In this document: positions 33,601 through 63,370 of the stretch, in pieces
How the letters are laid out: every line of letters begins with the position of its first letter
How positions within the stretch are numbered: position 1 is the first letter of the stretch
DNA from: a virus
Strand: one strand, 5' to 3'
Virus record (IMG/VR): IMGVR_UViG_3300021963_000126
Coordinates: 1-63,690 of that record
DNA length: 63,690 nt
The notes under the pieces: model-generated
Databases searched by the model: none
What the model saw: only the letters and a program-made list of their open reading frames with translations
What the model was told of the DNA's origin: nothing
Program-made: the position numbers and the translations under genes

Positions 33601-34067
33601 CTTATTCGTTGTTATTAAATCCTCTTAAAAGTATTAGTGACGAATTAGTGTTCCAACCTGCAAAATACAAAATATTATTTGGCGATAAGGCACCCGCAGT
33701 ACTCCAAGCAACTTTTAAGGCAACAAAAAATCCTGCTAGATCCAATAGCGACAATGATCTTAAAACACGAATTCTTACAGCAATTGACCAGTTCTTTAGT
33801 ATAGACAATTGGGATTTTGGTCAAACTTTCTTTTTTAGTGAATTGTCAACCTATGTAATGAATATAATGACTCCGGACATTACTAATTTTATTATTGTTC
33901 CTAAACAAGAATATGCGTTTGGTAGTTTATATGAAATTAAATGCAAAAGTAATGAAATTTTTGTATCCGGTGCAACCACCTTTAATATTGAAATTATTGA
34001 TTCTATGACAACTTCACAACTAAAAGCAAGTGGTAACATTACAAATACCGTAAGGGGTCAACAATAA
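30624..34067 (+). CDS. gp6: Baseplate wedge protein gp6, enlarged
   Basis: Core wedge protein whose dimers make the inner baseplate ring. The N-terminus is diagnostic: LVAEDWKKIYQSYKNADFKS, SEYIALIDLIAFLGQNLSFR, DLNARENFLETAERRESVLR, and LARLINYNAKRNYPATG, each family-typical. The core then continues with VTAEDYNIVPLTVG near residue 430. T4 gp6 has 660 residues, and this one has 1,147, mostly from beta-rich insertions in the middle and C-terminal half. The C-terminal region (NDLKTRILTAIDQFFSIDNW) is also gp6-like. Its stop overlaps the next gene's ATG by one base, so the two are coupled. Confidence 0.9.
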   Translation: MIPSTTNQLLVAEDWKKIYQSYKNADFKSYDFETLRRTMISYLRENYPEDFNDYIDSSEYIALIDLIAFLGQNLSFRVDLNARENFLETAERRESVLRLARLINYNAKRNYPATGLLKIVSIQGTDTVFDSSGLNLSNVPISWNDPTNPNWFEQFITILNSAMPSTMSFGKPAAKATVDGISTEKYTISSNNDSVAVFSFNKSINGSNFTFEIVSSSFDTTIYEDVPKPRSPFGILYRNDNKGTNSANSGFFVQFKQGTLNVSDFNLDNPVPNEIIGIDAPNINETDVWLWQLNQDGTYPANPWKKVSSVSGNNVIYNSLSTDERNLYSVITREDDQIDLNFTDGSFGNLPKGQFKLWYRQSTGISYLIKASQMQNISFSIPYVNSQGQAHTISFIASLQYNVGNSSPAETNVQIKTKAPQAFYSQNRMVTAEDYNIVPLTVGTDILKVKTVNRISSGVSRYYELTDVSGKYSSVNIYGDDGILYKEVKEYNFEYKISTRNEIKFAIKNNLVSVFNLKEFRNFYYEYYLRPNFENYSVNWTQATKNTNQVTGYFNLDGLPTPAGDFSSNNLKYVTTGALVKFIAPRKINPLLTNDSTLYQQYFLPNGKLTFTSDGTTSLYKWAKVISIVGDGYNEGKGTLLNGSGPVTLSTSLPTGAIPVEVITKFINIPSEALQAQLVNISLTKRNFGISLDQDTKSWYIVSDSNIDLTSPFSLINQKDTTDTNKDASWMVSFVWTGINYKVTYRVIEYIFESLNNTSFFVDNQKINYDYINDTIIKDSITVLGINRSPLVSTGESLKVDQPWQVDAPVIELDGYQEPRKVKISFYDIDEDGQIDNPDSFVDIVNPDYFDSVTGFKSNFVFFKWNTGRTRYTVADPTQFFSCPTENDVPQSMLTDGQLFYFYDDAVNVIKIWDESILDYVLQTDYFARPGRSDLKFHYIHKASQDRRLDPGKTNLMDIYLLTKSYDTEFRNWLYTGDGTEPYPPTTQGLDTSYSLLLNPLKSISDELVFQPAKYKILFGDKAPAVLQATFKATKNPARSNSDNDLKTRILTAIDQFFSIDNWDFGQTFFFSELSTYVMNIMTPDITNFIIVPKQEYAFGSLYEIKCKSNEIFVSGATTFNIEIIDSMTTSQLKASGNITNTVRGQQ

Positions 34068-37000
34068 TGGCTTCTAGAAAATCAGTTAATCTTTTACCGT
34101 CTTTTTTAAGAACAGAAAAAAATAATAAATTTTTATCAAGTACGCTTGACCAATTAATATCTCCGCCTGAAATTACAAGAATAGATGCATATGTAGGTAG
34201 CAAAGATACTCCTAGTTATCGAACTGGTGATGAATACCTGCAAGAGTCAAATCCATTGCGAGAAAAATATCAATTAGAACCAGCGTTGGTAGTAAGGACA
34301 TTGACTCGTAGCATTAAAAAGGCATTTGCGCTTGACGATCTTTTAAATCAAGTAAAAGTTAATGGAATTGATTCTTCTAATATTGACAGAATTCTTAATC
34401 CTAAATTTTATTCTTATGATCCTAAAATTAATTGGGATAAGTTTGTTAACTTTCGAGAATACTATTGGCTTCCATCTGGTCCTTCCGCAGTAGAAATTGC
34501 AGGAAGAACATTATCTCCAGTAACTGAATTTAATATTGTTGATGCAGACGATAAAATTCAATTCTTGTTTGATGCAAAGACAACTTCTCCTACTCTTACG
34601 TTGTATAGAGGCGCCACTTATGTTTTTAATGTTAAGTCGCAACATAATTTTTATATAAAATATACAAATAGTGTAGGTAGTAATGATTCTGTTCCTTTAA
34701 CTAATAATGGAACTAAAGACGGTCAAATAATTTTTACTGTCGATTGGTCTGCTCCTGAACGTTTATTTTATGTCAGTAACGATGACCAGCTATCAACTGG
34801 TAATATTTTTGTTAAAGACCCAATTGACAGCACTCTTATTGATATTGAAAATGAGATTGTTGGTAAAAAACACTATACCTCAGGTAACAATGTTACTTTT
34901 ATTGATGGTCTTAAAGTTCGATTTTCGGGAACTGTTATACCTGAAACATACAAAGACAACGAATATATTGTTGAAGGTGTAGGCAATGCAATAAAATTAA
35001 TTAAATTTACTGATTTAGATACTCCTGATGTGACTGCCGATGCTTATAATTCTAGATTTGACGGCACAAACTTTGATCAGTTTCCGTTTGATAATTTTAA
35101 AAATATTCCGTTAGTACCTGAATATGTTACAATCAATCGTGCTAGCAAAGATCTTAATCCTTGGTCTCGATACAATCGTTGGTTTCATTCGGACGTAATT
35201 AGAGAAGTTGCTAAAGCAAATAATCAATTAGTAATATATCCTGCCGAATATAGAGCAACTAGACCTATTGTAGAATTTATTCCAGATTTGCAATTATATA
35301 AATTTGGTACTACTGCAATTCCTAACGTTGATTTAATTGATACTTTTACAACTAACATCTTTAAAACAATTGAACAAGAAGACGGATACGATATTGATCA
35401 GATTACAGTAGAAGAAGGATTTAGAGTTGTTTTTAATGCAGATTCTGATCCTGCAATACGCGGAAAAGTTTTTAAAGTTAACTTTGCTAGATTTGGCGAT
35501 AGGTTTAAGATTAATTTAACACAAGAATCAGATATTCCTGTTGTTGGAACATCTGTTCTTATCAAGAAAGGTATTGAACACGGCGGTTCTTCTTGGTTTT
35601 ATAACGGCATTACTTGGGTTAAAGGACAACAAAGAACAAAAAGGAATCAAGCTCCATTATTTGATTTGTTTGACGAAAACGGAATAAGCTATAGTAGTAG
35701 TGAATATACTACTGATTTTAAAGGAAATGCGTTATTTGGATACGGAGTAGGCACCGGCCCCGTTGATCCTGTGTTAGGATTTCCGTTAGCTTATAGAAAT
35801 ACAGGTATTGAAGGCACTTATCTTTTTAAGAATTATTTTGCAATAGGATCTATTCAATTAGTAAACGCAGATCAATCAGCTACAATTTCAACTGCTCAAA
35901 CATATTTTAAAATTAATAGTGATAATGGCACAACAGTTTCTAATATATGGTTGTCGGTAGAACCTTACGAAATTCCAAACGTAAATGGAATATATGACAC
36001 ACCACTTAATTTAACAAATAATCCTTCTAATAAAAATATTACAGAATTTACATTAACTGAATTATCAGACCATGTACGCTCTATGGTATCTAGAGACCCA
36101 GAGTTTAAGGGAGATTTTCCTGGAGTAAGTAATCTTAAAGATTTACCATTTATTACTCGATTTGGTACAAAACTTATTACAAATATAAATCCGTTAAGTT
36201 TTGCCCAACATTTTATTACAGACAATGATAATTCTGTTATTAATGCAATGCGCCTTGTGGGAGAAAATTATCAGACTTTTAAATTTAATCTTATAAAAAC
36301 AATCAGCGACTTAAATGATAATTTGTCCCCCATTGATGCACTAGATGAAGCATTAAGAATTTTAAATCAAAACAAAACTACTACATTCCCATATTATAGT
36401 AGTGACATGGTTCCATATGGAGTAAGTCCAGTTATTCGAACTTATAGGATTACTGATTCTCGCAAGACAAAATATGCTCTTCCGCCCGATGCAAGTGTGA
36501 CAATATTAAGTTCTAGGGGCCTGTTAGTATATCTTAATACAACACAATTGATACGAGGTCGAGATTATAAATTTGATTCTTACGATGCTAACGTAGAAAT
36601 TTTAGTTCCTATTGTCCGAGGAGACGTTATTACTATTAAGGATTATCCTACAACTGATGGTAATTTTGTTCCTCCTACTCCTAGTAAATTAGGATTATAC
36701 CCTGCATACGAGCCTGCTATCTTTGAAGATGATTCTTATATTAACGGACCTAAAACTGTTATTCAAGGTCATGATGGCAGTATTACGATTGCGTTTGGTG
36801 ATTATCGAGACGAAATATTATTAGAATACGAAAAACGAGTTTACAATAACATTGGAACAGAATACAGAGCTGACATTTTTGATATCACTGCAATTTTACC
36901 CGGCGTATTTAGAAATTCTAAATTTTCTTATAGAGAAGTAATTAATCCAGTTTTACAAGATTTCCTTAAATGGAAATCAACATTCGGAGTCGAAATAGAA

Positions 37001-40000
37001 AAAAATCTAACATTTGATGTTAACGAACCTAAAACCTATAATTACAGTTCAGTAAAATTATCATCAGGCGATTATCTTCCTGGAAATTGGAGAGCAATAT
37101 TCAAATTATATTTTGATACTGATCGTCCGCACATTGCTCCTTGGGAAATGTTAGGGTTCAGTGTTAAACCAGCATGGTGGGAATCCGAATATGGTCCTGC
37201 TCCATATACTTCTGGCAACACAAAATTGTGGGAAGATTTAAAATTAGGAAAAATTGCACAAGGTACAAGGAAAGGGTTTGACCTTAACTATGCAAGACCG
37301 GACTTAATTAACATTTTGCCAGTTGACTCTTACGGTAATCCAATTCCAATTAGAAATTGGGGAATTTTAAACGCTAATAGTTCAGTTGATGGTATAACTA
37401 ATAATTGGAAATTTGGGGACATGGGTCCTGCTGAAACTGCATGGAGGAGAAGTAGTTATTGGCCTTTTGCTCTACAAATAATTTCTGCACTTACTAATCC
37501 GGCAACTTACACTGCTTTGATGTTTGACACAAGTAGAATAGTTAAAAATGCCGTAGATAAATTGGTGTATAGCAATGACAACCTTCCTATCAATTCTTCT
37601 AAAGTTATACTTCCATATGAAACAATAAATGGACAAAAACAATTTGCAAGCGGTTATAGCGTTATTGTTATTGAAGCAGGGCTAATTAAAAATTCTAATT
37701 ATATTAAAAATTTAAAATTAGAATTAACAAATGCTGAATTTAATCTTATGAATAAAGTTGGCGGATTTGTTAGCAAAGACAAATTAGAAGTTGTGATCGA
37801 TTCTGTTAATCCTAACAGCATTAATCCTGGAATATTATTGCCTACAGAAGATTATTCTATACATTTTAATGTAAGCAACCCTATCGATACAATTGAAATA
37901 AGCGGAGTTATTGTACAAAAAGTACAAGGCAATTATATTGTAAGAGGGTATGATAAGACCAATTCATATTTTAAAATTAATGCTCCTATTCGACAACAAG
38001 TGGACCCATATATCACTGTGGGTGCTATTTCTGAAGATTATACCGTGTGGAGTCCAAATACGTTTTACTCTATTGGTCAAGTAATTTTAAACGATAATGT
38101 CTTCTATAGGGTGTCTTCAAATCATAGTAGTGGTCTTATCTTTGATACCTTAAATTCTCAAAAGTTATCAACTTTGCCGACAGTAGGCGGAATTACTGCA
38201 CAACTATCAACAGGATTCGACGATACTGAAACTACTATCCCATACGGAACATTGTATCAAACTCCGCAAGAAGTTGTAGATTTCTTATTAGGGTACAGTC
38301 GTTATCTTACAAATAAAGGATTTGTGTTTGATGAATATAGTAAAGAATTGGGCGAGCTACTTGATTGGAAGTTAAGCATTAAAGAATTTTTATTTTGGAC
38401 AACGCAGAACTGGAACGAAGCCAATATAATAACATTAAGCCCCTTTGCAAGCAAAATTAAATTAACAACAAAAAATGCAGTTGTTGATAATGTGTTTAAT
38501 CCTTATTACGAATATTCAATATATAAGGCAAATGGAGCACCATTTCCGTACTCTGATATATCGTTAAGTCGTGAAGACGGATTTTGTACAATTTCTACTG
38601 ACAACGAACTAGAAGGTATTTTTTACGCTAAATTAAGATTAGTACAAAAAGAACACGCAATTATTCTTAATAATTTAAGTCGATTCAATGATGTAATATA
38701 TGACACCGCAACAGGATATAGACAGCGTCGAATTCGTCTTATCGGATTTAGAACAGCAAATTGGAACGGAAATTTTGTTAGCCCTGGCTTTGTTTATGAT
38801 GATGTTAAAATAACACCTTGGGGACCCTATACAGATTATACAGCAGGTGATGTTGTTGAATATGCAGGAAAATATTATAGTCTAATTAGATCGTCGGCAG
38901 GAGAAGAAACGTTTGATTTTTCTAAATGGTATAAGTTAGATAATAAACCGACAGCACAACTAATTCCTAATTTTGAATATAAAATTAATCAGTTCGAAGA
39001 TTTTTATAGTCTTGATATTGATAATTTTGATATAGGTCAACAACAATTAGCACAGCACCTTATAGGTTATAGTTCTAGAGTTTATCTTGATAATATATTT
39101 TTAAATCCAATTGCACAATACAAATTCTTCCAAGGATTTATAAGAGAAAAAGGCACCCTTAATGCTTTAAAAAAATTAGAAAGAGCAAGTGTTCATAACT
39201 TACAGGGAAATATTGAATTTAACGAAGAATGGGCATTTAGAATAGGAACGTTTGGAGCATTTGCGGCTCTTGATGAAATTGAATTTCCTCTCAACGAACT
39301 AGATTTTGTCGATAATTCTCAAATTGTTAAATTTGTTGAAAAAGCTCCTAACATATCTTACGATCCAACAAATTATATCACCCCAGATAAATTTACAATT
39401 AAAAACCCAGAAATTGATATTCTTAATCTCTTTGACACAGTACCGCCGTCGACAAATGAAGAATTGTTAGTATTACCTTATGCTGGTTATGCAACATTAG
39501 AAGATGTTGATTATACAGTAGTTTCAAAATCAGAACTTATATCGGGTCCTGTAAATTCTAACATTAAAGTTGGCGATACTGTTTGGGTAGGGTTTGACGA
39601 TAACGAAGACTGGGGTATATATAGATATTCTAGATTACCTATTGCAGTTAAACAAGTTTATTCTTACCGAGACGGCGAACAAATAAGTTTTATAACAGAT
39701 AAAAACCACGGGTTAAAAGTGGGCGATGTTGTTGCAGTTGTTCGATTTTCAGATACATTAGATAGAACATATGTTATCTCTGAAATTAATAGATTAGACG
39801 AATTTGTAGTAGACTACACCGGATCAATTCCTGATTTTGTAAGTCAATTTGGTTTATTGTTTAAGTTTGTATCATCTAGATTTGAAACATTTGACGATAT
39901 TATCAATACAACATATCTTGCAGACTTTAGACAAGGTAAAAAAGTTTGGATTGATAATAATATATCTGGTAATTGGGAAGTTTATGAAAAAACTAACAAC

Positions 40001-43000
40001 TATTTTATAAGTAGACTTCCAAATGTAATTGATTATGATTATGCTAGATACGGACAAGTGGTCAAGGCCGAAGAAAATTCTAATATATTAATTGTTGGTG
40101 CACCTGATTACGATGATGGAAATGGGTCGGGTAAAGTATTTGTTTATACAAATGTAAATGGAGTGCTGACCCAACTATTCTATTATGGAGTCAACAGATT
40201 CCTTAACCAATATTATAATAATAATCTTTCACCTGCTCCAAAAGGTGGATTTGGATCAGCAATAGAGTATGACCCTATTGACGGGTATATTATTGCTTCT
40301 GCTCCATATGCGTCCTATATTAGGTCAGAAACTTCCGGAAATACACGGTTTGTTTTATCTACCGCTCCTACTAGTTCATACCAAAAAGAGGGACTAGTAG
40401 TTATATCGTCGGTAAATTTAGCAAATAATGGAGAAACTCGATATTTTACATTATCTTGTTCTGAGCCGGAGAATGGATTAGAATTTGGTAAGAGTTTATA
40501 TGTTACAAACACAGCAACACACAAATTATTATTTGTAGGAGCTCCTGGTAAATCTTATAATGCAGGCGCAGTCTATTTCTATGATTTAGCAATAGTTAAA
40601 TCAGTTCCTGATGTATTAACTTTTGATAATAATCTTACTACCTTTGATAAAAATACCTGTCTGTTTGATGCAGTAGGTGCTGTTAAAATTGATACAAACG
40701 TTACAGCAACGTCACAAATAAAATTACCAACACCTCCTATTGTTTCTGCTGGTAGTAGATTTGGTGAAGTTATTTCTGGAAATAATTTAGGAACAAGAAT
40801 AGCAGTATCTGCTCCTCAATATAATAATGGAAATGGTGCAGTCTTTGTTTATAGAAAGAGCTCAACTGTAAATTCTTATACCTTAATTCAAACCTTACTG
40901 CATTCTGATGTAGCGCATGGCGGAAAATTTCCGTTGTATTCTAGATTTGGTGCATCAGTAAGTATGACAGACGACGGTAACTGGCTAATTGTGTCTGCTG
41001 ATTTAGCCGATGATAAGAATGTAGAAAAGGGAAAAGTTGCAATCTATAAATGGTCGACTAGTCTTAATTTATTTGTGTTCTCTCAACTACTACAAAATCC
41101 TTCTAGTACTAGAGGTCTTAAATTTGGTCATAAAGTTGAAACAGATAAATCTGGCGAAATTTTAGTTGTATCTGCTCAAGGACCAAATTATTTTTATGGT
41201 CTAACTTATGACGATGGGTCTACTACTTTTGATGCCGAGTCAACAAATTTTGGTGCAGTTATAAATGACTCTGGCTCTGCGTATGTCTATAATAGGTACA
41301 ATGATAAATTTATATATGCAACTGAGCTTTTTGATTATCAAGTTGATGCCGGAAGTTTTTATGGTGCAGATATTGCGGTAACAAGAAATTATGTATACGT
41401 TGGAGCACCGTTAGATATAACAACAGGTACTACACGTGGCGGCCAGGTGTTTGCATGGAACGCAATTGACCCATTAGCAAATACGTGGAAGTTAATAAGA
41501 CAACAGTCTAATTTAGTAGATACTCGAAATATTAAATCTATTAAAACAATTGATTCATTTAACGAACAAGTATTAGATTATCTTGAAATATATGATCCTA
41601 TCAAAGGATTTATTCCAAGTCCTGCCGAAAACGAATTAAGATATAAGTCTTTGTTTGACCCTGCGGTCTACAATACTGGTACCAATACAAAAGTTAATAT
41701 TGACATAACTTCTTATTGGGGGAAAGAACATGTAGGCGAGCTTTGGTGGGACTTATCGGCTGTTAAGTACATGTTGTATGAACAGGGCAATATTGATTAT
41801 AGGCGCAACCTATGGGGAAGTCTGTTTCCAGGAGCATCTATTGATGTATATGAATGGATAGAAAGTGATTTTATTCCTAGCGAATGGGGATTAAGCGCAG
41901 ATACAACTGCCGGCATTGCTCTAGGTATAAGCGGTACTCCGAAGCATTTAGATGATTCTGTGTACGTTGAAGAACAAATTTATAGTCCTATATCTGGACA
42001 ACTTATAAGCAAATACTATTTTTGGGTTAAAAATTCAATTTTAGTACCAAGCAGGCAAGGTAGAAATATTTCTGCAAACGAAGTAGCCGGGTATATAGAA
42101 GATCCAAAAGGTTACGGTTTAAGATATCTACAAGTTCATTCTGCAAATTCTTTATCTGTTGTTAATACTAAAGAAACATTGGTTAACGAAAGAATATTAT
42201 TGAACATACAATTAAACAATAGTGATTCAAATAAACACTCTGATTGGTTGTTAATAGAAGAAGGATCAGCTAATAGTCTTCCTAATCCATTATTAGAGAA
42301 AAAATTTGTTGATAGTCTATTAGGTCGAGATAGTTTAGGAAACGTTGTTCCTGATCCGTCGTTGACAGAAAGACAAAAATACGGAATTCAAATTAGACCA
42401 CGCCAATCTATGTTTAAAGATAGATTAGAAGCATTAAGGAATCTTATCAGTTATGTAAATGCAATATTTGTTAATAATTTAATTACTGATTTTTATAACT
42501 TATCTACTCTTAATCTTAAAGACGAAATTCCTCCGATCACTAGTCGAGCGTATGATTTAATTGTAGAAGATTTAGAAAAAAAATTAACTATATCGACTAA
42601 AGAATTAGTTCAGGCTGAATTCACAGCAGTATTAACTGATGGAAAAATTACTAATGTTAATATTATAAATTCAGGACATGGTTACGGTAAACTAGATCCA
42701 ATCGCTTATAATCAGGCCGGTGAACCAATTTTATGGCATGGTCCAGATATTACAATTGACAATGATACCAACGGGGCTATTATTAATACAGAAATTAATA
42801 GTGTAGGGTCAATTATTAATGTAATAATTAAAAATTCAGGGAAAAACTATAATACTCCTCCTGTTTTAGTAGTAAGACCGTATACTTTAATTGTTCAAAC
42901 AGATTCTGACTCAAAAGGTCGATGGACAAAGTATGCGCTAATTAACGGCGACTGGGAAAAAATACAAACTCAAAGCTACGATACTACATTGTATTGGGAT

Positions 43001-46000
43001 TATATAGATTGGGTATCACCAAACTATAATCCTAATCAAGCGATTAGTGCAACTCTTGATCAGATATATCAAATACCAGAAATTGAAGTAGCGACAAATG
43101 AGTATATAAAAATTAACAATAACGGTGCCAACAGATTTATTATCCTTAAGAAAGTTGAACCAGGAACGTTAGGTACATATAACAATAATTTTGATATAAT
43201 GTACAGCGAAAAGGGAACTATTAAGATTAAAGATAGTATATGGAAGTTATCTGATTCACAGTTAGGGTTTGATCAAATATCACCGTATGATGATACGTTC
43301 TTTGATCAAACTCCTGATGTAGAGTTAGAAAAAATTATATATGCTCTTAAGAATGATTTGTTCACAGACAATTTAAAAGTCTATTGGAATAAATTCTTTT
43401 TTGCAGGAGTTAAGTACGCACTAACAGAACAAAAATTTATTGACTGGGCATTTAAAACAAGTTTTATTAATGTTAAAAATATAGCTGGAGAGTTGAATCA
43501 ACGACCAATTTATAAATTTCAAGATTCTCAGTGGTATGAAAATTATCTCGACGAAATTAAACCATTCCATACTAAAGTAAGAAATTACAAATTAAGTTAT
43601 TCAGTGACAGATCCTTCACTAACCTTTGCAACTGATTTTGATCTTCCTGGCGTATACGATAAAACAATAGGTAAGTTTAAACCATTATCGGCTGTTGATA
43701 TTGAAGCTCAACAATATCCTTACAAAGGCTGGTTTGACAATTATAAACTTCATTTAGATAGGATAATTCTTGTCAATGCTGGTAAGGGATATACAGAAAC
43801 TCCTCAAGTTCAAGTAATTCCTGCATTAGGTGAAACTGTTACAAGGCCAGCAATTGTAAGAGCAGTATTAAGTGGCGGTAGTATATTAGATTTTGAAATT
43901 TTAGATTCAGGAGAAGGATATATTACTAACCCTACAATTCTATTTGTAGGTGGCGGTGGCGCAGATTATACTCCGGCCAAAGCTACTGCGGTCATGTCTA
44001 ACGGAAAAATAAGAACTAATCTTATTTCTCTAAAATTTGATAGAATATCAACAAATAGAGAAGTGGGATCAAAATTAGCAACTGATCAATTTACTGTTGT
44101 GGGAAATGAAAACGAATTTGTTTTATCGTGGCCTGCGCTATATGACAAGACTAATATTACGTTAAAAGATAACGGTATTATTGTGTTATCTTCAAACTAT
44201 ATACTTGAGAATTTTTCATCAAAAGTTAACGGTTACAGTAAACAATTTACAAGATTAATTCTTAATTATACTCCGGATCTAGGACATATAATTTCTATTA
44301 CATATCCAAAAAGTCTTAAAATTTATCAAGCATTTGATAGGATACAAGACTATTATAATCCGTTGCCAGGAATGCCAGGTAAGGATATAACTACTGGATT
44401 TTCTCAATTAATGAAAGGAGTAGAATATCCTGGAACTGAAATTTCAACACAGGCGTTTGATAACAGTTATCCATGGGACGGTGATCCATGGGGAGAAATT
44501 CCTTGGGATATCTTAAATTATTCAGTTACGGGATATATTCCAACTAGGGCAAATCTTCCTAGTTCGTATTCAGGTAGCATAGGCGATAGTTACATGACCA
44601 CAGACAACAATCACAAATGGGAATGGTCTGGTACTACATGGATTGACAGGGGCGAAATTAATAAAGACCTTGACACTCTTATTGATGGCGGCAATTTTAT
44701 AAAAACGTTAGCTGGTGGATTTGCCACTGCGGCAGGCACAACTGCTACTGACGTTATTCTTGACGGTGACGAATTTATATCTCCTTATAGGAGTCATGCT
44801 CCTGAAGAGTCTATTCCTGGTGAAGTTCATGATTCTCTTGCTATAGATGTCTTTACACGACGATCTTCAGGTAGTGGAATGATCTATACCCTAGTTCAAG
44901 ATGTAGTAGCTGGCCAACCTACTACAATCCAGTTAACTATTAAACCTCCAAATTATGATTCAGTCACTGTTACGTTAAATCATACATTATTACAACCTCG
45001 AGTAGATTATAGTATTAATTTCCTTGACAATTCCTTGTTTGTCGTGCAAAAAGCGGTAGGAGGCACACTTGAAGTTACCTATATGGAATTTGGAGGCACC
45101 GGTTTCTTAAGCAAAGATTCAGCTGTTGTTGAAGGGGAAGCTGAGGGAGCGGTTATAGGTTCTTGTGCATTTAGAGATGTTAAGAGTGTATTTGTAAGTG
45201 TTAATGGAGTAAGAATATACCCTCAAGGAACGTTCTATGCTCAATTGCAATATTTTGAGTTAACTAAAGCAGATGCTAAAAACAGTGCTAGAGCAAAAGT
45301 TACAGTATACGGATTAGGTATAGGTGAACCTAACACAATTACGGCTATATTCTTTAATGGTGATAAAAAGTTTAGTGAGATTAAAGAACAAGTTTGGCTT
45401 AATTTAGATAATAATAATAGAGATGTTGCCTTATCTCAACCTCCAGGCCTGCTTGGTCCTGCTTCTGCAAATTCTATTGTAGAATTAAACAGAAGAAGAC
45501 TTGTTCCTCCCAATACCACTTATTATGAGATAACAAACTTATCTCAAACACAATTTGATATTAATACTCGAAAAGTTTATCCGGCTAACTCTTTTGATAA
45601 TACAATTATTGAAGTTTATAAGAACGGAATAAAACTCTCAATTGGCCAATATGAACTTAACCAATACTACAATAGAGTTGAATTTGCAGACAACTTCTTT
45701 AATTTGGGCGATGTGTTAGCAATTACTTCTATTGTTGATTATGATTATGTAATAAGAGGCAATGTTCTTACCATCTCGGAGAGAGTTGATATTACAGGCT
45801 CTAATAGATTCAATGTTCTTAATGAACCCGGTTATGACGGAGTTACATATCTTCGAGCTATTACATTCACTAATCAAGATAACAGTTTTATAAGAACTGA
45901 AGTGTATGAAGCAAATAGTTCAAGAATTTATAAACTCACTCGAGTGGTAGTAAATGATAACTTTGTTTGGGTATCTATTGGAGATAAAGTTTTAACTAGC

Positions 46001-46975
46001 GGATATGATTTTGAAATAATGGAAGATTTAAGAACAATTCGTATTGATCCAGATATTCCTTATAACGAAGGCGATCAAGTTATTATTACTAGTTTTACTG
46101 AACAAGTGGCTAGCCTTACAATTGGATATAAAATATTTAGAGATATTTTAGGCAGAACACATTATAAGAGATTGAGCTCTGCAGAAACTACATACCTAAC
46201 TGAAGCATTGTTACCTACATCTACAACAATTAAAGTTCATAATGGAGCAATATTACCAACACCTGCATTAGAATATAAAACACCCGGTGTAGTATTTGTT
46301 GCGGGAGAACGTATCGAATATTTAGAGAAACACGGAAATGTCCTATCTAAATTGCGTCGAGGAACATTGGGCACTGGAGTAAAAGAACAGTACGGAGTCG
46401 GAACTTGGGTAGTTGATCAAAGCAAGACCCAAACTATTCCATTTGCAGAATCTGTTATCACACAAACATTCACTAATACTAGTGTTATAAGCACATTTAC
46501 TCTAACTCATAATAAATTTATATTTGCTAACGATGTTAAACCACACGATGCTATAGAAATATTTGTTGGCGGAGTAAAATTAGAAAAGCCGTTGCAAACT
46601 GGTAACTACCGTGTAATACATGACGGGACTTTATCGTTTGACTCGGGTGTAAATGATACAATTTTAGAACCGGATTTTACAATTACAACCAGCACACAAA
46701 CATTTGGAACTATGTATACAGTCAGCTTGTTAAAACCAGTTGATCCGCATTTAACTATATCTGTAGTACAACGTAGATCAACAACTTGGTATGATATAGT
46801 TCCTCCAAGTTTTACAGCTTCCTTATTTGATCAAAATACTGTACCTGCTACATTTATTAAACAACGAGAAGCTATTACCCCCGATCGATTCTCTTATGGA
46901 GGCGATTCTGTTTTACGTTTAGATGATGGAACCGCTCTATTATTAGATGACGGACGAGAAATTAAAGAGTATTAA
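34067..46975 (+). CDS. Giant gp7-position baseplate protein with an FG-GAP propeller
   Basis: A 4,302-residue protein in the slot of T4 gene 7 (1,032 residues, wedge initiator). The N-terminus (LLPSFLRTEKNNKFLSSTLD, then EKYQLEPALVVRTL and FREYYWLPSGPSA) is shared by very large structural proteins of T4-like marine phages. Residues about 1990-2465 contain seven FG-GAP-like repeats (for example ILIVGAPDYDDGNGSGKVFVY and IAVSAPQYNNGNGAVFVY), as in a seven-bladed integrin-type propeller. Residues 2860-3300 have G-x-G-Y-x-x-P beta repeats. Near residue 3505, MTTDNNHKWEWSGTTW is a fibre-type display motif. I infer one protein doing the work of gp7 and perhaps gp8, gp9 and gp10. No stop or frameshift is seen. 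Confidence 0.75.
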   Translation: MASRKSVNLLPSFLRTEKNNKFLSSTLDQLISPPEITRIDAYVGSKDTPSYRTGDEYLQESNPLREKYQLEPALVVRTLTRSIKKAFALDDLLNQVKVNGIDSSNIDRILNPKFYSYDPKINWDKFVNFREYYWLPSGPSAVEIAGRTLSPVTEFNIVDADDKIQFLFDAKTTSPTLTLYRGATYVFNVKSQHNFYIKYTNSVGSNDSVPLTNNGTKDGQIIFTVDWSAPERLFYVSNDDQLSTGNIFVKDPIDSTLIDIENEIVGKKHYTSGNNVTFIDGLKVRFSGTVIPETYKDNEYIVEGVGNAIKLIKFTDLDTPDVTADAYNSRFDGTNFDQFPFDNFKNIPLVPEYVTINRASKDLNPWSRYNRWFHSDVIREVAKANNQLVIYPAEYRATRPIVEFIPDLQLYKFGTTAIPNVDLIDTFTTNIFKTIEQEDGYDIDQITVEEGFRVVFNADSDPAIRGKVFKVNFARFGDRFKINLTQESDIPVVGTSVLIKKGIEHGGSSWFYNGITWVKGQQRTKRNQAPLFDLFDENGISYSSSEYTTDFKGNALFGYGVGTGPVDPVLGFPLAYRNTGIEGTYLFKNYFAIGSIQLVNADQSATISTAQTYFKINSDNGTTVSNIWLSVEPYEIPNVNGIYDTPLNLTNNPSNKNITEFTLTELSDHVRSMVSRDPEFKGDFPGVSNLKDLPFITRFGTKLITNINPLSFAQHFITDNDNSVINAMRLVGENYQTFKFNLIKTISDLNDNLSPIDALDEALRILNQNKTTTFPYYSSDMVPYGVSPVIRTYRITDSRKTKYALPPDASVTILSSRGLLVYLNTTQLIRGRDYKFDSYDANVEILVPIVRGDVITIKDYPTTDGNFVPPTPSKLGLYPAYEPAIFEDDSYINGPKTVIQGHDGSITIAFGDYRDEILLEYEKRVYNNIGTEYRADIFDITAILPGVFRNSKFSYREVINPVLQDFLKWKSTFGVEIEKNLTFDVNEPKTYNYSSVKLSSGDYLPGNWRAIFKLYFDTDRPHIAPWEMLGFSVKPAWWESEYGPAPYTSGNTKLWEDLKLGKIAQGTRKGFDLNYARPDLINILPVDSYGNPIPIRNWGILNANSSVDGITNNWKFGDMGPAETAWRRSSYWPFALQIISALTNPATYTALMFDTSRIVKNAVDKLVYSNDNLPINSSKVILPYETINGQKQFASGYSVIVIEAGLIKNSNYIKNLKLELTNAEFNLMNKVGGFVSKDKLEVVIDSVNPNSINPGILLPTEDYSIHFNVSNPIDTIEISGVIVQKVQGNYIVRGYDKTNSYFKINAPIRQQVDPYITVGAISEDYTVWSPNTFYSIGQVILNDNVFYRVSSNHSSGLIFDTLNSQKLSTLPTVGGITAQLSTGFDDTETTIPYGTLYQTPQEVVDFLLGYSRYLTNKGFVFDEYSKELGELLDWKLSIKEFLFWTTQNWNEANIITLSPFASKIKLTTKNAVVDNVFNPYYEYSIYKANGAPFPYSDISLSREDGFCTISTDNELEGIFYAKLRLVQKEHAIILNNLSRFNDVIYDTATGYRQRRIRLIGFRTANWNGNFVSPGFVYDDVKITPWGPYTDYTAGDVVEYAGKYYSLIRSSAGEETFDFSKWYKLDNKPTAQLIPNFEYKINQFEDFYSLDIDNFDIGQQQLAQHLIGYSSRVYLDNIFLNPIAQYKFFQGFIREKGTLNALKKLERASVHNLQGNIEFNEEWAFRIGTFGAFAALDEIEFPLNELDFVDNSQIVKFVEKAPNISYDPTNYITPDKFTIKNPEIDILNLFDTVPPSTNEELLVLPYAGYATLEDVDYTVVSKSELISGPVNSNIKVGDTVWVGFDDNEDWGIYRYSRLPIAVKQVYSYRDGEQISFITDKNHGLKVGDVVAVVRFSDTLDRTYVISEINRLDEFVVDYTGSIPDFVSQFGLLFKFVSSRFETFDDIINTTYLADFRQGKKVWIDNNISGNWEVYEKTNNYFISRLPNVIDYDYARYGQVVKAEENSNILIVGAPDYDDGNGSGKVFVYTNVNGVLTQLFYYGVNRFLNQYYNNNLSPAPKGGFGSAIEYDPIDGYIIASAPYASYIRSETSGNTRFVLSTAPTSSYQKEGLVVISSVNLANNGETRYFTLSCSEPENGLEFGKSLYVTNTATHKLLFVGAPGKSYNAGAVYFYDLAIVKSVPDVLTFDNNLTTFDKNTCLFDAVGAVKIDTNVTATSQIKLPTPPIVSAGSRFGEVISGNNLGTRIAVSAPQYNNGNGAVFVYRKSSTVNSYTLIQTLLHSDVAHGGKFPLYSRFGASVSMTDDGNWLIVSADLADDKNVEKGKVAIYKWSTSLNLFVFSQLLQNPSSTRGLKFGHKVETDKSGEILVVSAQGPNYFYGLTYDDGSTTFDAESTNFGAVINDSGSAYVYNRYNDKFIYATELFDYQVDAGSFYGADIAVTRNYVYVGAPLDITTGTTRGGQVFAWNAIDPLANTWKLIRQQSNLVDTRNIKSIKTIDSFNEQVLDYLEIYDPIKGFIPSPAENELRYKSLFDPAVYNTGTNTKVNIDITSYWGKEHVGELWWDLSAVKYMLYEQGNIDYRRNLWGSLFPGASIDVYEWIESDFIPSEWGLSADTTAGIALGISGTPKHLDDSVYVEEQIYSPISGQLISKYYFWVKNSILVPSRQGRNISANEVAGYIEDPKGYGLRYLQVHSANSLSVVNTKETLVNERILLNIQLNNSDSNKHSDWLLIEEGSANSLPNPLLEKKFVDSLLGRDSLGNVVPDPSLTERQKYGIQIRPRQSMFKDRLEALRNLISYVNAIFVNNLITDFYNLSTLNLKDEIPPITSRAYDLIVEDLEKKLTISTKELVQAEFTAVLTDGKITNVNIINSGHGYGKLDPIAYNQAGEPILWHGPDITIDNDTNGAIINTEINSVGSIINVIIKNSGKNYNTPPVLVVRPYTLIVQTDSDSKGRWTKYALINGDWEKIQTQSYDTTLYWDYIDWVSPNYNPNQAISATLDQIYQIPEIEVATNEYIKINNNGANRFIILKKVEPGTLGTYNNNFDIMYSEKGTIKIKDSIWKLSDSQLGFDQISPYDDTFFDQTPDVELEKIIYALKNDLFTDNLKVYWNKFFFAGVKYALTEQKFIDWAFKTSFINVKNIAGELNQRPIYKFQDSQWYENYLDEIKPFHTKVRNYKLSYSVTDPSLTFATDFDLPGVYDKTIGKFKPLSAVDIEAQQYPYKGWFDNYKLHLDRIILVNAGKGYTETPQVQVIPALGETVTRPAIVRAVLSGGSILDFEILDSGEGYITNPTILFVGGGGADYTPAKATAVMSNGKIRTNLISLKFDRISTNREVGSKLATDQFTVVGNENEFVLSWPALYDKTNITLKDNGIIVLSSNYILENFSSKVNGYSKQFTRLILNYTPDLGHIISITYPKSLKIYQAFDRIQDYYNPLPGMPGKDITTGFSQLMKGVEYPGTEISTQAFDNSYPWDGDPWGEIPWDILNYSVTGYIPTRANLPSSYSGSIGDSYMTTDNNHKWEWSGTTWIDRGEINKDLDTLIDGGNFIKTLAGGFATAAGTTATDVILDGDEFISPYRSHAPEESIPGEVHDSLAIDVFTRRSSGSGMIYTLVQDVVAGQPTTIQLTIKPPNYDSVTVTLNHTLLQPRVDYSINFLDNSLFVVQKAVGGTLEVTYMEFGGTGFLSKDSAVVEGEAEGAVIGSCAFRDVKSVFVSVNGVRIYPQGTFYAQLQYFELTKADAKNSARAKVTVYGLGIGEPNTITAIFFNGDKKFSEIKEQVWLNLDNNNRDVALSQPPGLLGPASANSIVELNRRRLVPPNTTYYEITNLSQTQFDINTRKVYPANSFDNTIIEVYKNGIKLSIGQYELNQYYNRVEFADNFFNLGDVLAITSIVDYDYVIRGNVLTISERVDITGSNRFNVLNEPGYDGVTYLRAITFTNQDNSFIRTEVYEANSSRIYKLTRVVVNDNFVWVSIGDKVLTSGYDFEIMEDLRTIRIDPDIPYNEGDQVIITSFTEQVASLTIGYKIFRDILGRTHYKRLSSAETTYLTEALLPTSTTIKVHNGAILPTPALEYKTPGVVFVAGERIEYLEKHGNVLSKLRRGTLGTGVKEQYGVGTWVVDQSKTQTIPFAESVITQTFTNTSVISTFTLTHNKFIFANDVKPHDAIEIFVGGVKLEKPLQTGNYRVIHDGTLSFDSGVNDTILEPDFTITTSTQTFGTMYTVSLLKPVDPHLTISVVQRRSTTWYDIVPPSFTASLFDQNTVPATFIKQREAITPDRFSYGGDSVLRLDDGTALLLDDGREIKEY

Positions 46976-58466: not shown

Positions 58467-59723
58467 TTATTTATAATGTGCGGTCTGGCCGAATGGTGCA
58501 ATTATGGCGTCATTTCCGTGGACAATAAACAGGGTATCGCAGTAATCTTCGTCACCCCAACTACCACAAGGATACCCGTCGGTGAACATAATAAAGCGTT
58601 TTGGTTCAATATTTTGCTCTTTCATAAAATCCCAATTAGCTTCAAATGCGGTACCTCCGCCACCTTTGCATTTATATTCCATAATTTCGTCAGCAGTGTC
58701 GCCTGTAAATTGTTTATATCCGTATACTTCTGTGTCAAAGCACCACAAGTCCAATTTAAAGTCGACATATTCGTCCATGATGCCCTTAACTTCACTTAAA
58801 AAGTCTTTAGCCTGTTCGTTTGAAATACTGCCCGACATATCAATTGCAACTGAAACATCGATAGTTTCTTCATTCATCATGCCGGGCAAGATAGCACCGC
58901 AGTGTTGGCTTTTACGATTAGGACGACTAAAGCTAAAGTTACTCTTAAGAATACTTTGGATATTCATACGTAACATTTCGCGCCAGTCCATTTTAGGTTC
59001 AGTAAAATCAGAGATCATACGAGCCACTCCGGCAGGTACTCGTCCTGCGCCAGCGGCATGTGCAGCCGCAACCATTGCCTCTTTAATCTCGTCTCTAATT
59101 TTTTTCTTTTCTTCGGCAGTTAGACGCGGCGGCCCTTTGCCTTCTTTATCCCCATCCCCATCGTCGTCACCTTCACCTTCGCCCTCGCCATCTAGGTGCT
59201 CGTCAAGTAATTCTCCTAACGTTGAGATATCAATTTTTTCAGCTTTATCGTACAAGTCCTGATAGATTTGTTCGTAACTCATACCACGGTATTTGTTATC
59301 CTGAAAGATCTTAATCCAACTTGGTACGTCACCAATTTTCTCATCTTTAAGAATTTGATTGGTAGCAAAGTCGGCGGCAATATTAGACAATGAGGGATCT
59401 CGGTCTTCTCGACGACCCATATGATCAAACACATTATGCAGAACTTCGTGTGCAAATCCAAATTCTGCTTCTTTAGGTTTGAGTTTGTCAACAAACTCGT
59501 TATTGTAGTAGAAGTTCCTACCGTCAGTGGCCAGTGTAGCACACCAGTCATCTGCTTCGACCATTTTAAGACGTGTTGCTAGATTACCAAAAAATGGATG
59601 GCGCAACAACAAACCGACTCTAGCTGTAATTAGTTTATCAAGAATTTTATTTTTATCAGCCGCCGAGTATTGTTTTGTATTTTTTGGTTTACGAATTTTT
59701 TCTGTTTTCATTACCGAAGTCAT
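58467..59723 (-). CDS. Metallopeptidase-like/VWA domain protein (DUF2201 type)
   Basis: A 418-residue two-domain protein. The N-terminal domain has an HExxH site, H92-E93-V-L-H96 with D100-H101 (FAHEVLHNVFDH), as in the predicted metallopeptidase part of the DUF2201 family. An acidic Gly-rich linker (residues 170-197) follows. The C-terminal domain is VWA-like, with a MIDAS motif D295-M-S-G-S299 and a Thr in the GGGGTAFEAN loop. In bacteria such VWA proteins pair with MoxR AAA+ ATPases as metal-insertion or remodelling chaperones. The AAA+ partner is encoded directly upstream. It has its own sigma-70-type promoter. Whether the HExxH is active is unknown. Confidence 0.85.
   Translation of the reverse strand: MTSVMKTEKIRKPKNTKQYSAADKNKILDKLITARVGLLLRHPFFGNLATRLKMVEADDWCATLATDGRNFYYNNEFVDKLKPKEAEFGFAHEVLHNVFDHMGRREDRDPSLSNIAADFATNQILKDEKIGDVPSWIKIFQDNKYRGMSYEQIYQDLYDKAEKIDISTLGELLDEHLDGEGEGEGDDDGDGDKEGKGPPRLTAEEKKKIRDEIKEAMVAAAHAAGAGRVPAGVARMISDFTEPKMDWREMLRMNIQSILKSNFSFSRPNRKSQHCGAILPGMMNEETIDVSVAIDMSGSISNEQAKDFLSEVKGIMDEYVDFKLDLWCFDTEVYGYKQFTGDTADEIMEYKCKGGGGTAFEANWDFMKEQNIEPKRFIMFTDGYPCGSWGDEDYCDTLFIVHGNDAIIAPFGQTAHYK
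58468..58475 (-). promoter_or_regulatory. T4-type late promoter (perfect TATAAATA)
   Basis: The minus strand reads TATAAATA, overlapping the stop codon of the VWA gene. The predicted start at 58462 gives an 8-nt leader for the 94-residue gene. Confidence 0.7.
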
Positions 59724-59750
59724 AATGCGTCCTTTTGTTACCTATATATT

Positions 59751-59779
59751 ATTATATAACCAAATACGTAAATAGTCAA
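59751..59779 (-). promoter_or_regulatory. Sigma-70-type promoter for the VWA gene
   Basis: The minus strand reads TTGACT, a 17-bp spacer and a perfect TATAAT. It lies between a strong terminator and the VWA gene, so the VWA gene is independently expressed from the AAA+ gene. Confidence 0.8.
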
Positions 59780-59781
59780 GC

Positions 59782-59802
59782 AAAAAGGGCCCCGAAGGGC
59801 CC
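59782..59802 (-). terminator. Intrinsic terminator after the AAA+ gene (UUCG loop)
   Basis: On the minus strand GGGCCC-TTCG-GGGCCC followed by TTTTTG. It is 4-5 nt after the AAA+ stop codon and just before the VWA promoter. Confidence 0.9.
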
Positions 59803-59806
59803 AATT

Positions 59807-60889
59807 TTAACCTTCCATTGCTTGGATAATGTATTTTCCGTACTTGTCATGGAACTTGTCAAAATGTTGCAATTTACTTGCATCAAATGGTAGATTGTAG
59901 TTAGTCAATGCTACCTTGGCACCCATAACAACCAATTCAGTCGGAAAGTTTTCCATCATAAACTTAAAGAAATTGTCTGCTAGTGCATCCCAATTTTTTA
60001 CCTTTTTCTCGTCTGCACTCTGCAATTCATAGCAAAGGCTAATAGTCAACGAGTACATTGCAGAGATTTCTTTAATGGTAACTTTTTCAATTTTACCAGA
60101 CAAGATGTCTTCTGGCTTGGGCATTTGTTTTGCTACTTTACGGTGAGCCATGAACTTAACAGCAAGACCTTCACCGATTGCTCCAGCAACTAAATCAGTC
60201 AATGTATTTTCTGGCAAACCATCATCTGATAGCAATTCAGAAACAAAAGACCAACTGCGAGGAGTGGCAAATGAGCGGCTTCCACCCTTTGGATCAAAGT
60301 CGTAAAGGTCCTGTTTAGCAAATCCAACATAGCCAACAACCTGCTCGTGAACACGATTCAAAGTAGCCCAATTGAGCCAATCTTCGTAATCTGTTTTAAG
60401 CTCCAAGTGAACAAAACGGTTAGCCAGCGGAGCAGGCATACGATAAGTAACACCTTTGTCAGTTTCACGGTTACCTGCGGCAACAATACTTACGCCTTTT
60501 GGCAATTTGTAAGTACCAACACGACGATTCAAAATAAGTTGATAAGCCGCGGCCTGTGTAGCAGGAGCCGCTGAGTTAAGTTCGTCTAGGAAGAGGATAG
60601 CAGTTGAGTCTGGATCGGAAGGAAGTTCCTGGGGCGGTGCCCAGCTCATAGTGTTAAGTTGAGTATTATAAAATGGAATACCTTTAATATCTGTAGGTTC
60701 CCAAAGACTCAATCGAACGTCAATTACTTCACGATCTTGTTCGTCTCCGAGTTGTTTAATAATATCGGATTTACCAATACCAGGGGGGCCCCACATGAAT
60801 ACAGGACGATTAACTTTCATAGCAAATCGGACAGCCGCTTTAGCTTCATTAGGACTAACGGTACGATTTGCGCTCATTTTTTCTGCCAT
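59807..60889 (-). CDS. MoxR-type AAA+ ATPase
   Basis: A 360-residue ATPase. Walker A is GPPGIGKS (residues 34-41), Walker B is ILFLDE (98-103), the sensor-1 Asn is N140 in VAAGNRE, and the arginine finger is R158 in LANRF. The E-P-T-D-I-K-G motif near residue 64 and NSAAPATQAAAYQLILNRRV near residue 105 are MoxR-clade features. The C-terminal third is an all-helical region with no known motif. MoxR proteins remodel or load metals into partner proteins together with VWA proteins, one of which is encoded next. A sigma-70-type promoter upstream and a terminator downstream make it a one-gene unit. Confidence 0.9.
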   Translation of the reverse strand: MAEKMSANRTVSPNEAKAAVRFAMKVNRPVFMWGPPGIGKSDIIKQLGDEQDREVIDVRLSLWEPTDIKGIPFYNTQLNTMSWAPPQELPSDPDSTAILFLDELNSAAPATQAAAYQLILNRRVGTYKLPKGVSIVAAGNRETDKGVTYRMPAPLANRFVHLELKTDYEDWLNWATLNRVHEQVVGYVGFAKQDLYDFDPKGGSRSFATPRSWSFVSELLSDDGLPENTLTDLVAGAIGEGLAVKFMAHRKVAKQMPKPEDILSGKIEKVTIKEISAMYSLTISLCYELQSADEKKVKNWDALADNFFKFMMENFPTELVVMGAKVALTNYNLPFDASKLQHFDKFHDKYGKYIIQAMEG

Positions 60890-60964: not shown

Positions 60965-61359
60965 TCTATTTTTGTGTTGTATTTTTGCGACATCTCTTTT
61001 GATTTAGTGTATTTTTTTATGTCGCCACCGAATAGTACCAATTGGACAGCAGTTTTTTCTGCAAAAACTTTAATGTATTTTCTGGTAAGAAAATATGGAC
61101 CGCTGATAGTCCTATCTAAATCTAAAAATAATTTATTATGGAAATTTTCTATTGGTTTTGGAAAGTCAACCTGATACGATTTTAAACCTAATTTTTGTTC
61201 AAAATCATCTAAACCTCTTTCTGTTAACCTCATACTATTGGTGCCGTTGTCTCTAGGATTAAGCCACCAAAGTAAATACCAACTTTTGAGTTGCTTCTCA
61301 TTCACAACAACATTAAGTTCATTGAGAAGTGTTTTAGTTAGTTGGAGTTTTTGATTCAT
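60961..61359 (-). CDS. Conserved phage protein of unknown function
   Basis: A 132-residue protein. Its core KSWYLLWWLNPRDNGTNSMR, with LTERGLDDFEQKLGL, then KLFLDLDRTISGPYFL and VFAEKTAVQLVLFGGDIKKY, is one I associate with a widespread hypothetical protein of T4-like cyanophages. No catalytic motif is obvious. It overlaps the upstream 103-residue gene by 26 bp. Its stop codon is part of the AAA+ promoter. A role in replication or nucleotide metabolism is only suggested by location. Confidence 0.7.
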   Translation of the reverse strand: MNQKLQLTKTLLNELNVVVNEKQLKSWYLLWWLNPRDNGTNSMRLTERGLDDFEQKLGLKSYQVDFPKPIENFHNKLFLDLDRTISGPYFLTRKYIKVFAEKTAVQLVLFGGDIKKYTKSKEMSQKYNTKID

Positions 61360-61645
61360 CGCTTTCTACTTTTTCTCCAGTAGTTAGCTTATAGACAGAA
61401 AAATCTTTACAATTAAATAATTTGTTAAGTTTTTCGGCTAGATTAAAGGCATGTCCAGAGTTAGAAAAACTTACTTTTTTATATTTTGGTCCAAGATTTT
61501 GGGCTATAAAACTAGTGGTTTTTAGATTAACTGGCCTATCATTATAAAAAACTGCCCAAATGGCATCAGCTTCTAGAACCTGTTCTGTTTTGTAATTTTT
61601 TTTGTTTGTTAGTTCTAACAAAACTTTTGGTTTTGGTCTAGACAT
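61334..61645 (-). CDS. Conserved phage protein with a gated ribosome binding site
   Basis: A 103-residue basic protein. EADAIWAVFYNDRPVNLKTT followed by GPKYKKVSFSNSGHAFNLAE is a conserved pattern shared with T4-like cyanophage proteins of unknown role. A late promoter and a 9-bp hairpin precede it: the hairpin includes the region between the GGAG ribosome binding site and the ATG, and the late start site lies inside its 5' arm. Late-specific translation is inferred. Confidence 0.7.
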   Translation of the reverse strand: MSRPKPKVLLELTNKKNYKTEQVLEADAIWAVFYNDRPVNLKTTSFIAQNLGPKYKKVSFSNSGHAFNLAEKLNKLFNCKDFSVYKLTTGEKVESDESKTPTN

Positions 61646-61646
61646 A

Positions 61647-61678
61647 ATATATGCGCTCCGAATTTAGTACGCATATAT
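61647..61678 (-). promoter_or_regulatory. Hairpin covering the ribosome binding site of the 103-residue gene
   Basis: ATATATGCG and CGCATATAT form a perfect 9-bp stem with a 14-nt loop that ends in GGAG. The ATG follows 1-2 nt after the 3' arm. Read-through RNA folds; RNA started at the late promoter (61670) keeps only one base of the 5' arm. Confidence 0.65.
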
Positions 61679-61683
61679 TTAGT
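61676..61683 (-). promoter_or_regulatory. Late promoter inside a ribosome-binding-site hairpin (ACTAAATA)
   Basis: The minus strand reads ACTAAATA, with a predicted start at 61670, the last base of the hairpin's 5' arm. Transcripts begin with the loop sequence and the free GGAG. Confidence 0.6.
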
Positions 61684-61690
61684 TGAAAAA

Positions 61691-61906
61691 TTAAAAATTT
61701 CCACCATCCATCTTTATTTGGACAGCGGTGTTTTCGGGCGGTCTAGAAGGACCATCTCCTGCTAATCTTGTCATTGTTACCGCTAAACTGTCCACTAAAG
61801 ATTGTACTTCTTTAATGTCTAAAGTAAGATTTCTCTGATTGCTTTTAATAGCTATTCGAGCTTTGTCTAAAAAATTTTCAATTGGTGCAGTATTAAGATA
61901 ATTCAT
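61691..61906 (-). CDS. Small protein of unknown function
   Basis: A 71-residue protein. Most of it is predicted helical (IENFLDKARIAIKSNQRNLT, then KEVQSLVDSLAVTMTRL), with a short disordered tail (GDGPSRPPENTAVQIKMDGG). It overlaps the 164-residue gene by 14 bp and is followed by the late promoter of the 103-residue gene. I do not recognise a family; the overlap and codon pattern support it as a real gene. Confidence 0.6.
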   Translation of the reverse strand: MNYLNTAPIENFLDKARIAIKSNQRNLTLDIKEVQSLVDSLAVTMTRLAGDGPSRPPENTAVQIKMDGGNF

Positions 61907-62387
61907 TTTTTTTACTCATTAAAACAAGCATTTGTTTCATTTCATCTTCAGTTCTAAACGGACCTTTAAAAACATATCGTTCTAAAGTAATTAGTTTTGG
62001 GCAGAAACTTTTTACCCAACCTTTGCGGAATTTAATAACATAATATCCTGCACAATATAGGCTCTTACTTTTGTTACTCTTTGCATAGATTGGTAATTTT
62101 TTCTTTATGTTATATACAGGATTGTGGGGCCTACTACCGCACGGAAACTCATATACATTGTGTGTTAAGTCGATATTTTTAAGTACTTTGATATTTTTTT
62201 CAATTTCTTCCGTTACCGAAATTCCAAATGTATCTCTTATTTCTGATTTAGTCTGAATATCAATTTTTTGACCTTTACGATAGAAACTAAAACCTTTCTT
62301 TTCTTTATTCAAAGTTCCTAATTTCTTACCACCATCCTCGACAATCCATACTTTATTAGGTACTAAAACTTTAGCAACGGCGCTCAT
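61893..62387 (-). CDS. Conserved phage protein of unknown function
   Basis: A 164-residue basic protein. The C-terminal half has YAKSNKSKSLYCAGYYVIKF, RKGWVKSFCPKLITLERYVF, and KGPFRTEDEMKQML, a set I associate with a hypothetical protein linked to the RNase H-like gene in T4-like cyanophages. It may bind nucleic acid given its Lys content, but no known fold motif is seen. It overlaps the RNase H-like gene by 4 bp (ATGA type), suggesting translational coupling. Confidence 0.7.
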   Translation of the reverse strand: MSAVAKVLVPNKVWIVEDGGKKLGTLNKEKKGFSFYRKGQKIDIQTKSEIRDTFGISVTEEIEKNIKVLKNIDLTHNVYEFPCGSRPHNPVYNIKKKLPIYAKSNKSKSLYCAGYYVIKFRKGWVKSFCPKLITLERYVFKGPFRTEDEMKQMLVLMSKKNELS

Positions 62388-63370
62388 AATGTATACCTCG
62401 CATTTAATGGTTCTGCATAAATCTGTACATTGTCGCTTACTTTTTGTAAATCGTATTCTGCACAGAATTTTAAAAGTTTAAATCCAACTTGTGAAACATT
62501 TTTTGTTTTATGTTCTTTGTTATCAATTACACTATTAATAATTTCTTTGATCTCAGCTGGTTGGGCTGTGAGGTCACATAATAGTTTATTTCGAGTATAG
62601 TCATCTAATACTTTATGTTCGACACCTTCGTGGTCAGTCCAGCGCTGAAGCATCATGTTGTTCCAAGAATAGCCTTTTGTTCCTCTGTCGGCAAAGGCCT
62701 CACGGAGACCAACTTTATTCTTTGTCCCTTTCTCACGTACTCCCGGATAAGCACTAAAGATATTGTCGGAGGTGTCGCCACGCATACACTTCTCAAAAAG
62801 TAACCATTCTGGGTCCGGCGCGGGCTTGACTTGTTTAGTTTTCTTATCAACGATAGGCTTACCCTTCTCATCAAAATACCCCTCATGTGTAGTTGTAATA
62901 CCCATGACTCCGTTATATTGTTTAACATTTGGAGCAATAAGTTGTGCAAAGTCGCCGTCTGTTGAAATGATAACATGGTTATCGTTTGGATGACTCTGTA
63001 TCCACCCTGCAATAAGATCGTCTGCTTCTAGTTGAGCATGTTGCAAAACTGTACAATTAGTTTTACTTTCAATAAATTCTTTAAATTTATCAAAAGTTTC
63101 CCAAAATAATTTTTCTTCTTCTGCTTCTCGGGGACTATGTGCGGCACGGGCATCACTCCGATTTCTTTTATAAGGTGCATAATGATCTTTGCGCCAGCTA
63201 CGCCCCTCTAGGCAAAATACCACATGGGTGCCGTTAAAATCTTTCCATGCTTTTTTAATAGAAGCAAGGATAATGTGCATGGCCATACCGACTTTTTCAT
63301 CAGCGTCGCCTCTTACTACATGCCTTGCACGAAAGAATGTATTTGCGGTATCTACAAGAATATAACTCAT
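62384..63370 (-). CDS. rnh: RNase H / 5'-3' exonuclease of the FEN family (T4 rnh-like)
   Basis: Removes RNA primers from lagging-strand fragments. The 328-residue sequence has the FEN-type metal-binding acids: D7 in ILVDTAN, LEADDLIAGW (E115, D117, D118), ISTDGDFAQL (D138, D140), and MRGDTSDNI (D199, D202). HYAPYKRNR (residues 63-71) is the substrate-binding basic part. T4 RNase H has 305 residues, so size agrees. A Lys-rich 20-residue insertion occurs around residue 170-182. It overlaps the upstream gene by one base (TAATG) and the downstream gene by 4 bp, so it lies in a coupled replication cluster. Confidence 0.9.
   Translation of the reverse strand: MSYILVDTANTFFRARHVVRGDADEKVGMAMHIILASIKKAWKDFNGTHVVFCLEGRSWRKDHYAPYKRNRSDARAAHSPREAEEEKLFWETFDKFKEFIESKTNCTVLQHAQLEADDLIAGWIQSHPNDNHVIISTDGDFAQLIAPNVKQYNGVMGITTTHEGYFDEKGKPIVDKKTKQVKPAPDPEWLLFEKCMRGDTSDNIFSAYPGVREKGTKNKVGLREAFADRGTKGYSWNNMMLQRWTDHEGVEHKVLDDYTRNKLLCDLTAQPAEIKEIINSVIDNKEHKTKNVSQVGFKLLKFCAEYDLQKVSDNVQIYAEPLNARYTL

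Follow-up and report, generated by a model that had tools for sequence, protein, structure and literature searches.

A late promoter within a start-region hairpin as a probable cis-acting switch for late translation of a conserved small gene in T4-related phages

In bacteriophage T4, the genes e, soc, 49 and I-TevI share a mode of control in which a long RNA hides the start region of the gene, while a late RNA lacks the 5′ arm of the structure responsible (PMC3014915). The leader structure of e was found only in close T-even relatives (PMC3014915). In T4 genes 25 and 38, a stem between the Shine-Dalgarno (SD) sequence and the AUG promotes translation (PMC3014915), and in Aeromonas phage Aeh1 a hairpin hides the ribosome binding site of mobE (cited in PMC3014915). 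T4 late promoters consist of an 8-bp box whose first base lies at −13, and the Aeh1-type late promoter consensus carries a/gC at −13/−12 (PMC2988020).

We analyzed a stretch of viral DNA of 63,690 nucleotides, hereafter the window, in which a 103-aa gene on the minus strand (61645–61334) is preceded by the leader ACTAAATATATGCGTACTAAATTCGGAGCGCATATATTATG. An initial annotation, made from the letters of the sequence, had proposed that this leader contains a late promoter embedded in a hairpin that hides a ribosome binding site, with transcription starting at 61670. A T4-type late promoter −10 element, ACTAAATA, is present at 61683–61676 and is kept in relatives; its TAAATA lies 36 nt 5′ of the ATG. 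The element fits the Aeh1 variant, with a/gC at −13/−12. By the T4 numbering, with the box at −13 to −6, the predicted late transcription start (+1) is position 61670, with which the hairpin's 5′ arm ends. The start named in the annotation thus agrees with T4 spacing (PMC2988020) and is retained as a predicted position.

The rest of the window supports the identity of this element as a late promoter. TAAATA is rare overall, with 38 copies against about 120 expected from base composition, and 16 of the 38 lie 8–110 nt 5′ of a same-strand called gene start, where 1.4 would be expected (an 11-fold enrichment). The window also carries, on the minus strand, a gene for a late sigma factor of the gp55 family (23395–24306; phrog_12791, E 7e-84; phrog_234, E 4e-24), by which the promoter would be recognised, and T4 gp55 matches the same two PHROG families. 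Portal, major head, baseplate and gp46/47-type genes are present in the window as well. A single ORF of about 4300 codons (34067–46975) occupies the region between a baseplate wedge gene and tail-fibre-like genes.

On the minus strand, an inverted repeat extends over 61646–61679. Its 5′ arm, AATATATGCG (61679–61670), overlaps the promoter, and its 3′ arm, CGCATATATT (61655–61646), is the entire SD-to-start spacer and abuts the ATG (61645–61643). The arms form ten Watson-Crick pairs without mismatch, and the last G of the SD GGAG (61659–61656) is able to add a G-U pair, U61669–G61656. The perfect pairing described in the initial annotation therefore stands, but the stem is 10–11 bp long and not 9 bp; similarly, the spacer is paired as had been claimed, but the GGAG is mostly in the loop and not in the helix. 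By prediction and by the covariation described below, the spacer and the edge of the start codon would be in the helix on the long RNA. The 51-nt stretch with the hairpin folds as RNA at −13.2 kcal/mol versus −5.0 for shuffles (z −3.9), with 1 of 200 shuffles folding as well, whereas an RNA begun at about 61671 folds at −2.0 kcal/mol, not better than shuffles. An Rfam search of 61000–62400 matched no curated RNA family up to E 1. Since this AT-rich window holds six 10-bp inverted repeats versus 2.3 expected, such a repeat is by itself not rare, and the case against chance rests on position and conservation.

We then compared the read-through RNA and the late RNA by the opening cost predicted for the start region (the energy to free −16 to +6; energies for 37 °C). 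For the window, the costs are 14.7 kcal/mol and 3.1 kcal/mol, respectively. Among 131 distinct relatives, the median is 11.9 kcal/mol for the read-through RNA versus 3.2 kcal/mol for the late RNA, the difference being at least 4 kcal/mol in 123 and under 4 in eight. Other TAAATA-led genes of the same loci give 5.6 versus 3.6 kcal/mol, and the two costs are at least 4 kcal/mol apart in 19 of 84. When the 5′ parts were swapped between leaders, the mean read-through cost dropped from 11.5 to 8.1, and the leader's own 5′ part was better than the mean of the swapped ones in 100 of 114 leaders. The late-RNA cost is near its floor at the predicted start: it rises if the assumed start is moved 2–4 nt further upstream, and there is little gain further downstream, so that the predicted start lies where the switch needs it to open. 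As a positive control, the same calculation on T4 gene e gave 17.8/16.4 for read-through versus 4.5/2.1 for late RNA, and T4 soc gave 8.6 versus 6.8. The likeness to e and soc that the annotation had named is described in the literature (PMC3014915), and e computes to the same switch.

Relatives were collected by protein search, independently of promoter or hairpin, and the sample comprised 171 viral-contig loci (a few contigs being present twice) and four kinds of named phage: the PA5oct group, Phosso, Atu_ph07 and SCTP-2. A nucleotide search of the phages collection found no relatives. A TAAATA is found 12–61 nt 5′ of the start codon in 131 of the 133 distinct upstream regions. Most leaders have a stem of 7–12 bp that starts within or just past the box and ends at about +1 to +3; its 3′ partner, in most leaders, is the stretch between SD and start codon, and often reaches into the AUG. 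The loop contains the SD in 86 of 96 leaders. Most 5′ arms terminate at offsets 11–13, the predicted +1 being offset 11, and with +1 set by T4 spacing 2.6 of 9.4 pairs would remain on the late RNA (104 leaders with a stem). The stem pairs themselves differ among relatives, including ATATATGCG/CGCATATAT, AATAAGTGCGT/ACGCACTTATT, ATATATACG/CGTATATAT, TATCTGCGTAT/ATACGCAGATG, ATATAAGCGTAT/ATACGCTTATAT, AGTGTGT/ACACACT and others.

With MAFFT, the leaders were aligned on sequence and the stems fell out of register, so we measured covariation by swapping arms between leaders. With TAAATA excluded, the pairing of a leader's own arms scored 15.9 versus 12.2 for mixed arms (114 leaders; permutation sd 0.24, about 15 sd). 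When each distinct 5′ arm was represented by a single leader, the scores were 13.3 versus 9.8 (sd 0.39, 9 sd), and 0 of 20,000 permutations were as high; the leaders are related sequences, so these permutation figures overstate significance. On the protein gene tree, the 5′ base at offset 9 switches between A and G 15 times and its partner follows, with few of the branches well supported, and tests on the starred branches of the tree were underpowered, at 1–3 pairs. Judged by this comparison, about 100 distinct leaders have conserved, through covariation, both the pairing and the register of the arm with the predicted start site.

Some lineages depart from this arrangement. In L118, CTCC pairs directly with the SD and the 5′ arm lies upstream of the promoter; the group of L140, L149, L158 and L162 resembles L118, also with the arm upstream of the promoter. 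In PA5oct (L082:5890–6000) and Phosso (L083:5890–6000), a strong GC hairpin separates the late promoter from the gene before it; the one in PA5oct resembles a terminator (AAAAACCCTGTATAGTCTATACAGGGTTTTT). The papers searched for PA5oct expression data contained none. In L167, L168, L172 and L175, TAAATA lies 12–13 nt before the ATG with no clear SD, and a late RNA from these promoters would therefore be nearly leaderless. These outlying devices hint at a conserved demand for late-only expression but fall short of proof. A wider reading, which we put forward tentatively and at somewhat less than even credence, is that T4-type jumbo phages have a deeply conserved need to express this small gene only late, and that several devices, each evolved separately, serve that need. 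Those devices may be, in most leaders, the hairpin with the promoter in its 5′ arm and, in L118 and the L140 group, an upstream arm that pairs with the SD; with the same reserve, the terminator-like hairpin of PA5oct and Phosso and the nearly leaderless late RNA of L167, L172 and L175 could be counted among them. If such a need exists, the 103-aa protein would harm infection when made early. A similar case was seen at another gene, in L066 (6849–6913), where a 434-aa gene, possibly for a tail-fibre-like protein to judge from its first residues, carries a switch of this type: in its leader, CTCCTGAGATATCTT ... TATAAATA ... AAGATATTCCAGGAG, an arm located 5′ of the late promoter pairs with the SD, and the opening costs are 18.6 versus 5.5.

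We consider it highly likely that the leader of the 103-aa gene is a cis-acting switch that confines translation of this gene to late infection. Early and middle transcripts would run on from the tightly packed upstream genes and carry both hairpin arms; the presumed source of this read-through RNA is the 71-aa gene directly upstream (61906–61691), which 116 of 175 relatives have at the same position. The stem would cover the whole SD–AUG spacer, so that the 30S subunit could not settle, and on read-through RNA the 103-aa gene, perhaps together with the 132-aa gene that overlaps it, would stay unmade. Once the gp55-type late sigma factor takes over, transcription would begin near 61670, where the 5′ arm ends, and the late RNA, freed of that arm, would have a weakly structured leader of about 25 nt with GGAG and be translated. 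Since the SD is mostly in the loop, sequestration would affect the spacer and the start codon, whereas in the classical cases it is the SD that is hidden; some leaky initiation on the read-through RNA is possible. This model builds on the sequence elements, the conserved pairing, the covariation on the RNA strand, the fixed register and the sigma factor gene, from which we infer the actual start site, the read-through, the silencing and its timing. A weak terminator-like stem with a T-rich tail (61728–61701) lies where the 71-aa gene ends, just 5′ of the promoter, and might itself reduce read-through.

Of the other explanations, the one that survives best is that the hairpin is an RNA operator and overlaps the promoter only incidentally; the translational repressor bound there would be RegA-like or polymerase-like, or would be the 103-aa protein itself. 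T4 gp43 and gp32 do use leader structures, and the 103-aa protein is small and without an assigned function. However, the stem sequence is very variable, with 35 distinct 5′-arm heptamers, and the loop has little fixed sequence besides the SD; the features that are conserved are the pairing and its register with the start site, and a few lineages swap the hairpin for other arms upstream of the promoter. We therefore regard an operator as improbable. It could also be argued that the palindrome, which overlaps a promoter element, acts as DNA, either as an operator or as a cruciform. Within the stems, G-U pairs outnumber A-C mismatches by 31 to 6, a preference that is not expected of DNA and that argues for selection on RNA, and the half-site sequences are not conserved, which leaves this explanation very little weight. 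Even less credence is due to a stem that aids translation by bringing SD and AUG together, in the manner of T4 genes 25 and 38; such stems exist in T4 (PMC3014915), but in this leader the loop holds the SD, and the linear distance from SD to AUG is normal as it stands. Finally, chance complementarity of an AT-rich promoter (TAAATATATA) with an AT-rich spacer, for which the surplus of 10-bp inverted repeats in the window might speak, is refuted by the covariation of the arms outside TAAATA, by the cross-pairing and swap tests and by the far weaker effect at other TAAATA-led genes.

The protein that would be placed under this late switch is highly conserved, with 20 invariant columns among 46 diverse members, and its AlphaFold model predicts an alpha/beta fold (mean pLDDT 87.6). 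Searches of Pfam, PHROGs and PDB sequences found no family for it, and the description in the initial annotation of a known strategy on a gene without a known role is upheld, the strategy being that of the T4 e, soc, 49 and I-TevI class. A Foldseek search of the model against the PDB gave nothing below E 0.2, and a search of BFVD returned two uncharacterised phage proteins and a weak match named RNA polymerase (E 0.019); no trustworthy relative of known function was found in these structure searches. A PsaD-like fold, the best VIA-align match, had a Z of only 4.3 and was not trusted. The 3′ end of the gene is overlapped by a 132-aa gene (61359–60961), which directly follows it in 147 of the 165 relatives with sufficient sequence; the two are probably co-transcribed and possibly translationally coupled, and the switch may for this reason govern both. 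Downstream of this cassette, the window encodes a MoxR-type AAA ATPase and then a DUF2201 metallopeptidase/VWA protein (58467–60889), and the DUF2201-like gene is TAAATA-led in several relatives.

The T4 lysozyme switch has so far been known mainly from T-even phages and from homing endonuclease genes. Covariation in about a hundred distinct leaders of environmental phages provides comparative support for the mechanism on an unrelated gene, and it marks the 103-aa family as one whose early synthesis is probably selected against. In addition, unannotated jumbo phages could be searched for further strictly late genes by looking for TAAATA together with a stem that has its 5′ arm ending at +1.

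As in T4 e, soc, 49 and I-TevI, the late promoter lies in or beside the 5′ arm, and the opening costs computed for e are similar. Unlike the T4 e class, the 103-aa gene is unrelated and its SD is usually in the loop and not in a helix; and unlike the T4 e leader, the arrangement at this gene spans very divergent phages. As at mobE of the T4-type phage Aeh1, a hairpin would hide the ribosome binding site, and the locus shares with Aeh1 the a/gC at late promoter positions −13/−12, but mobE is a homing endonuclease gene whereas a conserved small gene is found here. The stem is close to the start codon, as in T4 genes 25 and 38, but the SD in the window is inside the loop and not 5′ of a stem lying between SD and AUG. 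Taken together, the leader of the 103-aa gene is, by the evidence of sequence comparison, a member of the T4 e/soc/49/I-TevI class on a new gene family, and its arrangement is conserved, with matching changes in the arms, in over a hundred related phages.
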